Assembly (NCBI GenBank): GCA_035295165.1
Contig: DATGJN010000015.1
Span: 1-48,974, forward strand
Length of the DNA stretch: 48,974 bases
Source: a bacterium
GTDB lineage: Bacteria > Sysuimicrobiota > Sysuimicrobiia > Sysuimicrobiales > Segetimicrobiaceae
Reading direction: 5' to 3'
Shown: positions 3,342 to 10,109 of the stretch, one piece after another
Position numbering within the stretch: the stretch's first letter is position 1
Layout: every line of letters starts with the position of its first letter
Position numbers and translations under genes: made by a program
The notes under the pieces: generated by a model
What the model saw: the letters and a program-made list of their open reading frames with translations, nothing else
What the model was told of the DNA's origin: nothing
Database searches by the model: none

Positions 3342-5207
<1,866 letters not shown>

Positions 5208-5215
<8 letters not shown>

Positions 5216-5450
5216 CGCGCGCCGAGGACGCCGGCCGGCCTTCTGGCAGGCGATGATCGAGCTGACGACGCTGGGCTGGCTCATCGCGCTGCCGATCGCC
5301 GCCGGTGTGCTCCTTGGCCGGTATCTCGACGTCCGCCTGGGGTCCGGAGCGGTCTGGACGCTCTCGCTCCTTGGCGCCGGCATCGCGGTCGCCGGCCTCG
5401 ACGTCTACCTGGCGTTGCGCCGGGTGTTGACCGGGAGCCGCCGTGAATAG
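5208..5450 (+). CDS. atpQ: N-ATPase accessory subunit AtpQ (AtpI-like), 80 aa
   Basis: Small membrane protein with two transmembrane helices (about residues 16-37 and 45-68), resembling the AtpI/ATPase-gene-1 family. It occupies the third position, where AtpQ is always found in N-ATPase operons. The ATG at 5208 overlaps the end of atpC by 8 bases and gives the usual short length. The role is thought to be assembly of the c ring or ion supply to it. This is inferred from the family, not visible here. Confidence 0.85.
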
Positions 5451-5715
5451 CCTCGTGGTGTTCGTCGCGGCCGGCCTGGGCGCGGGCACGCTGCACGCGC
5501 TGGCGTTCCGCCGTCTCGCCGTCGGGCTGCTGACCGTGTGGGGGTCACCGCTCGCCTTCGTCGGGGCGAGCGCCGGACTGCGAGTACTGGCGGCGCTCGC
5601 CGGCCTCCTCACACTCCGGTATTGCGGCGCCGGTGCCGCGTGCGCGGGGGCCCTCGGGTACTGGCTCGGGACCAAGGCGGTCGTGGCCCTTGCCGCCGTC
5701 GAAAGGAGTCGGTAG
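5443..5715 (+). CDS. atpR: N-ATPase subunit AtpR, 90 aa
   Basis: Small hydrophobic protein with about three membrane helices. It occupies the fourth, N-ATPase-specific position and fits the AtpR family by length and by intramembrane arginines (FRRLAVGLL and LRVLAALAG). GTG start at 5443, overlapping atpQ by 8 bases. AtpR is diagnostic for this ATPase class. Its function is not established, although helping c-ring assembly has been proposed. Confidence 0.85.
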   Translation: MNSLVVFVAAGLGAGTLHALAFRRLAVGLLTVWGSPLAFVGASAGLRVLAALAGLLTLRYCGAGAACAGALGYWLGTKAVVALAAVERSR

Positions 5716-5717
5716 CG

Positions 5718-6377
5718 GTGGAGTTGGAACGACGCGTCGTCCTGTGGATCGCCGGCGTACCGGTCACGACGACCGTGGTGTCCACGACGGGGATGGTCGC
5801 CGTGCTGTCCGTGCTGGCCGTCCTCGCCGGCAGGACCATCCGGGCTCGGCCCAGTCGCTGGCAGGCGGTGGCCGAGTGGGGCGTTCGGGGGGTGGAAGGG
5901 CTGCTGGACGAGGTGGTTGGCGACGGACGGAGGTACCTGCCGCTCGTCGCCACCCTCGGCCTCTTCATCCTGGTCGCCAACCTCATGAGCGCGCTCCCGG
6001 CGGTCGAGGCGCCGACCGCGGACGTGAATACGCCGGCCGCGCTCGCGATCATCGTCTTCTGCTCGGTGCACTACTACGGCATGCGAGAAGCGGGCGTGTT
6101 GGGCTACTTTCGGAGGTTCACGCAGCCGGTGCCGCTGTTGTTGCCCATCAATATCCTGTCCAACCTGACGCGGACGTTCTCGCTCGCGATCCGACTCTTC
6201 GGCAACATGGTTTCGCACCAAATCATCGTAGCGATCCTGCTGCTGATTCTGCCGCTCGTGGTGCCGGCGGTCCTCGAAGTTTTCGGGATGTTCATCAGCG
6301 TTCTGCAGGCGTACATTTTCACCGTCCTGACGATCGTCTACATCGGCGGGGCGGTGCGCGCGGGGGGGGAGCTCTAG
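5718..6377 (+). CDS. atpB: N-ATPase subunit a (membrane stator), 219 aa
   Basis: Membrane stator subunit that forms the two ion half-channels against the c ring. The essential arginine is in [10 protein letters not shown], the family signature, and the C-terminal pair of long helices ([17 protein letters not shown]) is present. The GTG at 5718 is preceded at 9 bases by GAAAGGAG (5701-5708), which overrules the longer frame starting at 5538. The protein is somewhat short compared with housekeeping a subunits but normal for N-ATPases. It lies directly before the c gene, one base away. Confidence 0.94.
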
Positions 6378-6378
6378 G

Positions 6379-6921
6379 ATGTCTCCGGATCTGTTTGCCC
6401 TCATCAGCATGGGCGCCGCCGGCGTGGCAATCGGCGCAGGCGTGATCCTACCCGCTCTCGGACAGGCGCGGGCTGCCTCTCGGGCCATCGAGGCCATCGC
6501 CAGGCAACCCGCGGCCGCGCCGGTCATCACCCGCAATCTGTTCGTCGGGCTCGCGATGATCGAGTCGCAGGCGCTCTACGTCCTGATCGTGGCGCTGATC
6601 CTTCTCTTCGCGAACCCGCTGGCCGGCCTCGTACCGGCGGCGGTCGCCCGCGGCGGCCTGGCCATCTGGCTGCTTGCCGGCTCGGCCGCGGCGGCGGCCC
6701 TCGCCATCACGCTGGGGACGATGGGAAGCTCGCTCGGCCAGGGGCGAGTGACCGGCGCCGCGCTGGAGTCGATCGCCGAACAGCCGGGGGCCGGCGACCA
6801 GATTTCCACCACGCTGTTCGTCAGCCTCGCGCTTCTGGAGTCCCTCGCGCTCTACGCGCTCATCGTCGCGCTGATCCTTCTCTTCGCCAATCCGTTGGTC
6901 GACCAGATGTTCCGTCGGTAG
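6379..6921 (+). CDS. atpE: N-ATPase subunit c, fused double hairpin, 180 aa with two ion sites
   Basis: Rotor-ring proteolipid. The usual c subunit is about 80-100 residues with one hairpin. Here two hairpins are joined in one chain, with four membrane helices. Each half keeps the sodium-type ligand set: Gln29, Glu62, Ser63, Tyr67 in the first and Gln121, Glu154, Ser155, Tyr159 in the second, 92 residues apart. The residue equal to Ilyobacter Thr67 is Gln64 or Leu156. The polar loops are ARQP (first) and AEQP (second), so the loop arginine is lost in the second half. Both halves end in [11 protein letters not shown]. Sodium coupling is an inference from these ligands. A carboxylate with Ser and Tyr can also occur in proton-coupled N-ATPase rings. 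Confidence 0.93.
6592..6611 (+). repeat. First copy of a 20-bp exact direct repeat within atpE
   Basis: The sequence at 6592-6611 is identical to 6868-6887, 276 bases (92 codons) downstream in the same frame, coding for the end of each outer helix. It marks the internal duplication of the c subunit. Confidence 0.9.
6868..6887 (+). repeat. Second copy of the 20-bp direct repeat within atpE
   Basis: Exact copy of 6592-6611 in the second hairpin of the fused c subunit. Conservation at the base level suggests either a recent duplication or ongoing gene conversion between the halves. Confidence 0.9.
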
Positions 6922-6924
6922 CAC

Positions 6925-7683
6925 GTGCTACACTTCCAGTTCTCCACCATCGTGTTCCAGATCGTGAACTTCTTCATCCTCTTGGCCGTGTTGACGTGGT
7001 TCCTCTACCGGCCGCTGCTGCAGACCATGCGGCGACGGGAAGACGACATCGCCGCGCGGCTACGGGATGCCGAGGAGCGCGCCCGTCGCGCCGACGCCGA
7101 ACGTGCGCAACTGGCCGAGGAGGCCGTGCAGGCTCGGGCCAACGCGGAGGCCCTGCTCACCCGCGCTCAGGCCGAAGCAACCCAGACGCGCCAGCGCCTG
7201 CTGGACCAGACCAAACAGGAAGCCGCGCGCTACGCGGAGGAGGCGCACCAGCGGATCGAAGAGCAGGAGCGGGCCGTCCGGGAACGTCTCGAGGACACAG
7301 TCCGGAAGACGGCCGTCGCGATGGCCGGCAGCCTCATTCAGCAGGCCGCCGGGCCCCCGGTGCATCGCGCCCTCATCGAGCAACTGCTCACGGGAACCCT
7401 CGCGCCTGAGGGGATCCAGCGGGACCTGCTCCACCGGGCGGTCTCGCGTTCGAACGGCGCGATGACGGTCGAGGTGGCGTACCCCCCCTCTCCCGAGTTG
7501 ACGGAGCGGATCCGCGAGGCGATCGCGCGCCTGCTCGGCGTGACCGACCGCCGCGTGGAGATCGTCGTCCGCGTGGACCCGTCGCTCCGCGCCGGCGCTC
7601 GGATCGTCGTGGAAGACGTCGTCGTGGACCTGAGCTTGAACCGTATCCTCACCGAACTCGAGCACAAGGACGCATCGCACTAG
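6925..7683 (+). CDS. atpF: N-ATPase subunit b with delta-like C-terminal domain, 252 aa
   Basis: Peripheral stalk subunit. Residues 1-30 contain a membrane anchor (FQIVNFFILLAVLTWFLYRPL), residues 30-130 form a long charged coiled coil, and the last 100 residues form a globular part resembling the delta/OSCP C-terminal domain. N-ATPase operons have no separate delta gene, so this fusion replaces it. The GTG start at 6925 lies 3 bases after the atpE stop. Length and layout match the class. Confidence 0.92.
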   Translation: MLHFQFSTIVFQIVNFFILLAVLTWFLYRPLLQTMRRREDDIAARLRDAEERARRADAERAQLAEEAVQARANAEALLTRAQAEATQTRQRLLDQTKQEAARYAEEAHQRIEEQERAVRERLEDTVRKTAVAMAGSLIQQAAGPPVHRALIEQLLTGTLAPEGIQRDLLHRAVSRSNGAMTVEVAYPPSPELTERIREAIARLLGVTDRRVEIVVRVDPSLRAGARIVVEDVVVDLSLNRILTELEHKDASH

Positions 7684-7695
7684 GAGATGTGAGCG

Positions 7696-9216
7696 ATGGA
7701 CTGGGAGCGTGATGTCGCGAAGGTGCTCGCAGACCTGGAGGCGCGGACACTCGACGTGGATTTCCGGCCGCGCGTCGAGGACATCGGCCGCGTGCAGCGG
7801 GTCGGCGACAGCGTGGCGTTCGTCGAAGGTCTGGGCGGCGCGACCGCGGACGAGATCGTCGTGTTCGCAAACGGCGAGCTGGGCCAGGTGTTCGATCTCG
7901 ATCGCGACATCACGGCATGCGTGCTCTACGGCGCGGAGGAAGGCGTCACGGCGGGTTCTCCCGTGTTTCGGACGGGCCGCACGCCCGCGATGCCCGTGGG
8001 GGAATCCCTGCTCGGACGGGTGGTGGACGCGCTGGGCCGGCCCCTCGACGGCCTGGGGCCGATCCTCGCCACCGAATCGAGAGAGATGGAGCAAGAAGCG
8101 CCCGGGCCGCTGGACCGACAGCCGATCCGCGAGGCGCTGTTCACCGGGATCAAGGCCATCGACGCGGCCATCCCGATCGGTCTCGGCCAACGAGAACTGA
8201 TCCTGGGCGACCGCGAAACGGGAAAGAGCGGCCTCGCCATCGACACGATCATCAATCAGCGCGACAGCGGTGTCGTCTGCATCTACGTGAGCGTGGGCCA
8301 CAAGCGGGCCTCGGTGGTCGAGCTCGTCGAGGAGTTCCGGAAATACGGCGCCCTGTCACACAGCGTGGTCATCGTGGCGGATGCGGGAGACCCCGTGTCC
8401 CTCGTGTACCTCGCCCCGTACGCGGGATGCACCCTGGCAGAATGGTTCGCGTATCGCGGCGGGCACGCCCTGATCGTGTACGATGATCTGTCCCGCCACG
8501 CGGAAGCCTACCGAAGCTTGTCCCTGATCTTGCGTCGACCGCCCGGGCGGGAAGCCTATCCGGGCGACGTGTTCTCGGCCCACGCCCGGCTGATGGAGCG
8601 GGCGTTCAAGCTCAGCGAGTCGCGTGGCGGGGGCTCTGTGACCGCGCTCCCGATCATCGAGACGCAGCAGGGCGACATCGCGAGCTTCATTTCCACGAAC
8701 CTCATCTCCATGACGGACGGCCAACTGTACCTGGACACCGCGCTGTTCACCCAGGCCCAGTTGCCGGCCATCGACATCGGGCGGTCGGTCTCGCGTGTGG
8801 GCCGGGACGCGCAGCCCGGCGCCATGCGCGATGCGGCGGCAAATCTCCGGCTGGAAATCGCGCAGTATGAGGAGGTCAGGGGCTTCGCGCGATTCGGCGC
8901 CATCCTGGACGAAGCGACCAGGGCGCAGATCGCGCGGGGAGAGCGACTGACCCGTGTGCTCGGGCAGTCGGAGCGACAGGTGGTGCCGCTCGCGGTACAA
9001 GTCGCGGAACTGTGGGCGTTGAAGTCCGGGCTGTTGGACGACGTGGCGGCGAAGCTCGTCCCGGAATTCGAGCGCCAGTTGGTCGCGCTCACCGCGGAAT
9101 TTGCCCACCTGGGTCCAGAGGTCGTCGCGGCGCCCTCCATCGGGCCCGAACTCGCCCGCGATCTCCGCCGTTGGGCCGAAGCGGCCAAGGACCGGCTCGG
9201 GAGACCCGGGGGCTGA
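7696..9216 (+). CDS. atpA: N-ATPase subunit alpha, 506 aa
   Basis: Non-catalytic nucleotide-binding subunit of the F1 head. The P-loop is GDRETGKS (residues 171-178), a variant of the usual GDRQTGKT. YVSVGHKRASV and the arginine-finger region SISRVG-like segment (GRSVSRVGRDAQ) are visible. ATG at 7696 with AGGAG at 7682-7686 overlapping the atpF stop. Followed by a one-base overlap with atpG (TGATG). Confidence 0.95.
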   Translation: MDWERDVAKVLADLEARTLDVDFRPRVEDIGRVQRVGDSVAFVEGLGGATADEIVVFANGELGQVFDLDRDITACVLYGAEEGVTAGSPVFRTGRTPAMPVGESLLGRVVDALGRPLDGLGPILATESREMEQEAPGPLDRQPIREALFTGIKAIDAAIPIGLGQRELILGDRETGKSGLAIDTIINQRDSGVVCIYVSVGHKRASVVELVEEFRKYGALSHSVVIVADAGDPVSLVYLAPYAGCTLAEWFAYRGGHALIVYDDLSRHAEAYRSLSLILRRPPGREAYPGDVFSAHARLMERAFKLSESRGGGSVTALPIIETQQGDIASFISTNLISMTDGQLYLDTALFTQAQLPAIDIGRSVSRVGRDAQPGAMRDAAANLRLEIAQYEEVRGFARFGAILDEATRAQIARGERLTRVLGQSERQVVPLAVQVAELWALKSGLLDDVAAKLVPEFERQLVALTAEFAHLGPEVVAAPSIGPELARDLRRWAEAAKDRLGRPGG

Positions 9217-10109
9217 TGGAGAACCTCGAGACACTCCGAGCGCACCGCCAAGGCATTCAGCGTCTGGTGCCGATCCTGGAAGCTGTTCGGTCCGTCGCCG
9301 AGATCGCGTGGCGCCGAGCCGAACGCGGCGCGCTCCCGTTGCGCCGCTACAGCACCCAGGTGCGAGATATGTTTGAACGCGTGCTGCTATCGTTGGACGA
9401 GGCGCAGCGTGAGGCGTTTCTCGGCGGCCGCTCGGCGTCGTCACCGATCGCCCTGCTCCTCGTCACGGCGGAGCGCGGGCTGGTTGGCCCCTTCAACAAG
9501 CGGCTCGTGGCCTACGGGCTGGAGTACGCGCGAACGCTCGCGGGAGAAGGGCGGACCGTGCGTTACCTCTGCCTGGGGACACGCGGGATCCGGCTGCTTG
9601 CGGGGGCGGGAGCGCCGCTACTCTACAGCCGGTCCCTCCCCTCCCTGGCCATTCCGGCCTACGTCGATGTACAGGAGATGGCCTTGGACCTCGTCGGCCT
9701 GGTGGAGCAGGGCGCGTTCGGACGCTTGCTCGTCGTGCACAACGCCCCGGTGCAGCGGTTCCAGTACGCGCCGACGACTCGGCTGCTCCTTCCCCCGGAC
9801 GTCCGAAGCGACACCTCGTCCCGCCCGAGGGTCGTCGTCAAGCCGGCCACGGACACGCCGACGCTCCTCACGCACCTGCTGACCGAGCACCTGCTTGTCG
9901 GCCTGTACCAGGCGGTGCTGGAATCAGCGATCAGCGAGCAACTGGCGAGGATCTACACGATGCGGCTCGCCGTGGACAACGCCGGCAAGCTCGTCGATCG
10001 CCTCACACTCGCCTACAACCGCGCGCGACGAAACACGATCACGAACGCGCTGCTCGAGGTCGTGAGCGCCTATGAGATGATGGCGCGAGGCGAACAGCCG
10101 CGTTCGTAG
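9216..10109 (+). CDS. atpG: N-ATPase subunit gamma, 297 aa
   Basis: Central rotor shaft. N-terminal and C-terminal helices form the coiled coil. The C-terminal signature RARRNTITNALLEVVSAYEMM corresponds to the gamma motif (usually NxARQxxITxEixEIvxGA). The N-terminal start MENLETLRAHRQGI is more divergent than in housekeeping gamma, as is usual for this class. ATG at 9216 overlaps the atpA stop. Last gene of the operon. It runs tail-to-tail with the gene at 10142. Confidence 0.93.
   Translation: MENLETLRAHRQGIQRLVPILEAVRSVAEIAWRRAERGALPLRRYSTQVRDMFERVLLSLDEAQREAFLGGRSASSPIALLLVTAERGLVGPFNKRLVAYGLEYARTLAGEGRTVRYLCLGTRGIRLLAGAGAPLLYSRSLPSLAIPAYVDVQEMALDLVGLVEQGAFGRLLVVHNAPVQRFQYAPTTRLLLPPDVRSDTSSRPRVVVKPATDTPTLLTHLLTEHLLVGLYQAVLESAISEQLARIYTMRLAVDNAGKLVDRLTLAYNRARRNTITNALLEVVSAYEMMARGEQPRS

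Follow-up and report, generated by a model that had tools for sequence, protein, structure and literature searches.

A natural fused c subunit with two hairpins and two carboxylates, encoded in a divergent N-type ATPase operon of a bacterium and two haloarchaea

The size of the rotor ring and the number of its carboxylates set how many ions are moved per ATP, and V-type rotors presumably turned into dedicated pumps when the c-subunit hairpin was duplicated and one site was subsequently lost. Fused double hairpins in which both sites are kept are already known from A-type enzymes, and Acetobacterium woodii has a fused F-type c subunit in which one site is lost. In the part of the literature that we covered, we found no report of a fused N-type c subunit, nor of a fused c subunit of F/N-type with both carboxylates. 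In known rings, Gln32 and Glu65 of one hairpin form the site together with residues 63 and 66 of the adjacent one, and residue 67 lies nearby. Mulkidjanian et al. give Ser, Thr, Gln or Arg at position 67 for predicted Na+ enzymes and Leu, Ile or Val for predicted H+ enzymes, and name Gln65 of Enterococcus hirae NtpK as a direct Na+ ligand (PMC2359735).

The window, that is, the whole stretch of 48,974 nucleotides of bacterial DNA that was analysed, encodes an N-type ATPase operon with a c subunit of unusual length (Table 1). A sequence-only reading had claimed that this AtpE is a fused tandem hairpin, and the claim is borne out by an intact open reading frame, two matches to the Pfam c-subunit model PF00137 within the protein and the same architecture in two haloarchaea. 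It was also right that single hairpins are the norm for N-type c subunits: those of nine annotated plasmid N-ATPases measure 79-95 aa, and 44 of 44 N-like c subunits, a set taken from genome scans and sorted by a simple motif, are single. An AlphaFold2 model of AtpE, built from three sequences, has four long helices with a mean pLDDT of 89.5. The solved structure nearest by sequence is the fused c1 subunit of A. woodii (E 2.8e-18), which is also the best match in a fold search with the model (TM 0.74), followed by V-type double-hairpin subunits including E. hirae 2bl2. Since the genome is a draft and the window one of its contigs, we considered that an assembly or sequencing artefact might have joined two tandem atpE genes. 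This can be ruled out with near certainty, because the same fusion occurs in two further species, in one of them on a complete plasmid, and the offset between the halves is 92 residues in all three sequences.

Table 1. Genes of the operon and features of the fused c subunit in the window (positions of the window; codon and helix numbers refer to AtpE).
Feature	Position	Strand	Basis
atpD (beta)	3354..4820	+	TIGR01039, 626 bits; alternate-F1F0 model TIGR03305 below cut-off
atpC (epsilon), start within ORF 4706-5215	4817..5215	+	PF02823; 43% identity to Halogranum
atpQ (AtpZ/AtpI-like)	5208..5450	+	PF09527; 51% identity to Halogranum over 69 aa
Small membrane-protein ORF at atpR position	5443..5715	+	Two hydrophobic segments; named by position only
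atpB (subunit a), essential Arg in IRLFGN	5718..6377	+	PF00119; alignment
atpE, c subunit with fused double hairpin, 180 aa	6379..6921	+	ATG start, 0 internal stops, two PF00137 domains, relatives in Halogranum and Salinigranum
Hairpin 1, residues 1-77: helices 3-42 and 44-77, loop ARQP	6379..6609	+	AlphaFold2 model
Gln29 codon, half 1, Ilyobacter Gln32 position	6463..6465	+	Sequence
Arg42 codon, half-1 loop	6502..6504	+	Alignment
Glu62-Ser63-Gln64: carboxylate, hydroxyl ligand, Gln at Thr67/E. hirae Gln65 position	6562..6570	+	Sequence, alignment
Tyr67 codon, half 1	6577..6579	+	Sequence
Linker joining hairpins, residues 78-93, modelled short helix 80-91	6610..6657	+	AlphaFold2 model
Hairpin 2, residues 93-169: helices 93-134 and 136-169, loop AEQP	6655..6885	+	AlphaFold2 model
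Gln121 codon, half 2	6739..6741	+	Sequence
Glu134 codon, half-2 loop, replacing Arg	6778..6780	+	Alignment
Glu154-Ser155-Leu156: carboxylate, hydroxyl ligand, aliphatic Leu at Thr67 position	6838..6846	+	Sequence, alignment
Tyr159 codon, half 2	6853..6855	+	Sequence
atpF (long b, OSCP-like C-terminus)	6925..7683	+	PF00430 and PF00213 in one 252-aa protein
atpA (alpha)	7696..9216	+	Profile matches
atpG (gamma), start within ORF 9012-10109	9210..10109	+	PF00231

When 84,980 species genomes were scanned with a sequence pattern, one close fused relative emerged, in Halogranum amylolyticum (L004), and a plasmid search returned a second one on a complete plasmid of Salinigranum marinum (L031), where it is annotated as an ordinary AtpE. 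Both proteins have 182 aa and are 58-60% identical to the window AtpE. The other subunits of these haloarchaeal operons, with the exception of the R-position ORF, are likewise the closest to those of the window; the Salinigranum operon (L031 4543-5929) has atpC, an AtpZ/AtpI-like gene and atpB and leaves no room for an atpR gene. Further fused copies were found neither in 42 other genomes of the window's own phylum, nor in 391 other genomes of the Halogranum class, 392 of its phylum and 391 of its order (overlapping draws), 398 of the Ferrovibrio phylum and 45 of the FCPU426 phylum (most draws being samples), nor in viral contigs. The one additional match, from a search of the Halogranum family, has the same coordinates as the fused gene on the Salinigranum plasmid. 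The haloarchaeal operons widen the archaeal range of a 2025 survey, whose text mentions no archaeal N-ATPases outside the class of Methanosarcina (PMC11738941).

The eight site residues, the pair Q64/L156 and the pair R42/E134 are invariant across the three fused species, a conservation that is thinly sampled with three sequences of which two are close kin. A tree of c hairpins, built on few columns, groups the three first halves together (99/92) and leaves the second halves outside this clade. Since first halves separate from second halves, a single duplication came before the bacterial/haloarchaeal split. In the comparison of Halogranum with Salinigranum, half 1 has a dN/dS of ~0.09 and half 2 one of ~0.10, which indicates that purifying selection acts on both halves. 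The window gene has a 20-base exact match, in register, between its halves (6592-6611 and 6868-6887) that is absent from the haloarchaeal copies; recent gene conversion between the halves is possible (P 0.03 by codon shuffle). Two other kinds of unusual c subunit came up in the scans: an N-like one with Gly for the essential Glu, also lacking the Tyr (L070 1474-1743; G467:C41:35283-35513), which is apparently unable to carry ions, and those of four loci in the FCPU426 phylum (L110, L111, L112 and L117), which have a charged C-terminal tail of ~45 residues beyond helix 2.

The genes of the window operon are ordered atpD-C-Q-(R)-B-E-F-A-G (3354-10109). This is the N-ATPase order beta-epsilon-Q-R-a-c-b-alpha-gamma, with an ORF of no recognisable similarity in the R slot, which has no Pfam or NCBIfam match. 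Further N-ATPase traits are a longer b subunit (the 252-aa AtpF), the absence of a delta gene (atpH) from the operon and the coexistence with another rotary ATPase, an A-type operon on contig C20 whose subunits were read from its ORFs. A single-hairpin c subunit of about 80-100 aa, a usual rather than a defining trait of N-ATPases, is replaced here by one of 180 aa with two hairpins. The alpha, beta, gamma, epsilon, a and b subunits all score below the cut-offs of the NCBIfam 'alternate F1F0 ATPase' models, and c passes that of TIGR03322 only when its two matched stretches are summed, these cut-offs being a database rule and not the original N-ATPase definition. Phylogenies of beta, alpha and a unite the window operon with the two haloarchaeal operons in one clade (100/98 to 100/99), apart from the canonical N-ATPases that were sampled, and in the beta and alpha trees this clade sits between those and the F-types. 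V/A-type K subunits are encoded in V/A-type operons, and those of V-type have one carboxylate per double hairpin; AtpE belongs to an F/N-type operon and has both E62 and E154. On these sequence grounds we call the operon a divergent N-type ATPase.

In subunit a, the motif with the essential Arg is followed by His-Gln in the window/haloarchaeal clade (window 6189-6221), and in the other aligned N-types Gly stands in place of this His (FGNIMSG and similar). The His-Gln may be related to the fused ring. Aldehyde dehydrogenase and DUF779 genes are frequent neighbours, and the window has one of each (PF00171, 1513-3168; PF05610, 10924-11406) flanking the operon, as if the latter had been inserted between them. 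The window is syntenic at 1-1450 with three genomes from its own genus or family (L132, L133 and L134), but not beyond ftsH; what comes next in those genomes is common to the three and unmatched in the window. That the contig is foreign to its genome bin was considered and rejected, given that the adjacent FtsH is 93% identical to that of a same-genus genome and 90-92% identical to most of the family's best copies.

Each half of AtpE has the equivalents of Ilyobacter Gln32, Glu65, Ser66 and Tyr70. All eight residues had been named correctly beforehand (Q29, E62, S63 and Y67; Q121, E154, S155 and Y159), as had the retention of both carboxylates, E62 and E154. The residue after the Ser (Ilyobacter Thr67) had been omitted; it is Q64 in half 1 and L156 in half 2, in all three species. 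The description as 'two complete ion sites' has to be revised at position 67, where the sites are not equivalent. Gln at this position occurs in three of three first halves, and in none of the 44 N-like and none of the 27 F-like single c subunits sampled. Leu is common there (20/44 single N-like c subunits), so that Leu156 by itself is not necessarily a sign of a different ion. Counted by the Na+ rule of PMC2359735 (Gln/Glu32, Glu65, Ser/Thr66, Tyr70 and a polar residue 67), a site with helix 2 from half 1 (Q64) scores 5/5 and one with helix 2 from half 2 (L156) scores 4/5. The helix-1 Glu of the Burkholderia pseudomallei type, found in 37/44 N-like c subunits, is replaced by Q29 and Q121.

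The earlier assumption of equivalent sodium sites, with a uniform Na+ pump moving two ions per fused subunit, agrees with the invariance of Q, E, S and Y in both halves, with the salt-loving haloarchaeal hosts and with the prediction that about half of N-ATPases are Na+-specific, as given in the 2025 survey cited above (PMC11738941). It seems unlikely, however, since half 2 has the Leu of predicted H+ enzymes at the Thr67 position and the halves differ there in 3/3 species. Sequence alone does not settle the ion, because the c17 ring of the B. pseudomallei N-ATPase, the only measured N-type ring in the literature that we covered, is H+-specific although Na+ was predicted (PMC5376962). This measured N-type ring and Leu156 would fit a proton pump with H+ at both sites, a reading we find improbable: Q29 and Q121 stand in place of the helix-1 Glu of the B. 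pseudomallei ring, and Q64 matches an E. hirae Na+ ligand. The salt-loving hosts (two of the three members) and the full set of Na+ ligands at one site would favour Na+.

Our preferred reading, which we hold with even confidence for and against, is a homomeric, even-numbered N-type rotor with a carboxylate in each hairpin and two alternating, unequal sites, exporting cations that are most likely Na+ at one kind of site at least. A profile search of the window's genome found no other F/N-type c gene, and the Halogranum genome likewise contains none besides the fused one. As the only F/N-type c gene is fused, the ring would consist of fused subunits alone and have an even number of hairpins, in agreement with the sequence-only reading. 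Genetically fused c-rings are functional in Bacillus PS3 (PMC8809890). If the two hairpins are placed in the ring in the same order as those of E. hirae NtpK, hairpin 2 would supply Q121 and E154 to the site inside one polypeptide and hairpin 1 the M60 backbone, S63, Q64 and Y67, giving a full Na+ site of the E. hirae kind. The site formed where two polypeptides adjoin would combine Q29 and E62 with the L152 backbone, S155, L156 and Y159 and would have no polar ligand at the Thr67 position. Every hairpin of the ring would bear an ion-carrying carboxylate, and ATP hydrolysis would rotate the ring and export cations, most likely Na+ at least at the within-polypeptide site, alongside the cell's A-type ATPase. 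That the enzyme would pump rather than synthesise agrees with the general presumption about N-ATPases. The glycine motif, VLAGA and TGSGG in the window and AxGxAxAxG in B. pseudomallei, gives a hint of a large ring that is too indirect for a claim on ring size.

The halves also differ in the loop. The change from R42 to E134 is real and conserved in three species, but the earlier conclusion that only every second hairpin makes the standard loop contact is weak: among the 44 N-like c subunits, 29 have Gln at the loop position, 14 have Arg and one has His, and the epsilon partner position is non-acidic in the N-types aligned. The loop partner in Escherichia coli is Glu31 of epsilon. At its position we found Trp in the window/haloarchaeal clade and Gly, Ala, Ser, Phe or His in other N-types; it is acidic only in the F-types sampled.

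The asymmetry of the halves (L156, E134 and S117 for P25) could also be that of a V-type-like rotor that uses one site while the other is a relic on its way to loss, and both A. woodii c1 and E. hirae K lack one carboxylate. We regard this as very unlikely, since both carboxylates (E62 and E154) and the residues that accompany them have survived the bacterial/archaeal divergence, with similar purifying selection on the two halves. The rotor with two alternating, unequal sites that we prefer has a bolder form, in which the fusion fixes a strict alternation of Na+-competent and proton-type sites. The ring would then be a surviving intermediate that links symmetric rings of single hairpins to V-type rings with every second site lost, and the ratio in which it transports Na+ and H+ might be fixed; this form is doubtful. 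A natural F/N-type duplication with both carboxylates kept and one ligand position already changed would make the V-type path testable, since each site can be mutated on its own in a single gene.

The enzyme resembles canonical N-ATPases, among them that with the B. pseudomallei c17 ring (PMC5376962), in its gene order, in the long b subunit without a separate delta gene and in the presence of another rotary ATPase. It differs in the fused c subunit, in the helix-1 Gln in place of Glu and in the position of its operon outside the sampled canonical N-ATPases; its F/N-type ring would be forced to an even number of hairpins, compared with the 17 units of the known N-type ring. With the A/V-type K subunits of Methanothermobacter, Methanobrevibacter and Methanopyrus kandleri, as these are described in PMC2359735, AtpE shares a duplication of the hairpin in which the ion ligands are all kept, but it belongs to an F/N-type operon. 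It is similar to E. hirae NtpK (PDB 2bl2) in its four helices, in the Gln directly after the hydroxyl ligand of hairpin 1 (Q64) and in the Gln/Glu of hairpin 2 (Q121 and E154); NtpK has one site per double hairpin, whereas hairpin 1 of AtpE retains its carboxylate, E62. Lastly, A. woodii c1 (PDB 4bem chain J, 182 aa) is, like AtpE, a natural fused double hairpin in an F-type ring. In the alignment, however, its hairpin 2 has Gln for the carboxylate, whereas AtpE keeps both, E154 included, and the A. woodii ring also holds the single-hairpin c2 (nine chains in 4bem), whereas a single-hairpin F/N-type partner gene was not found in the window's genome.
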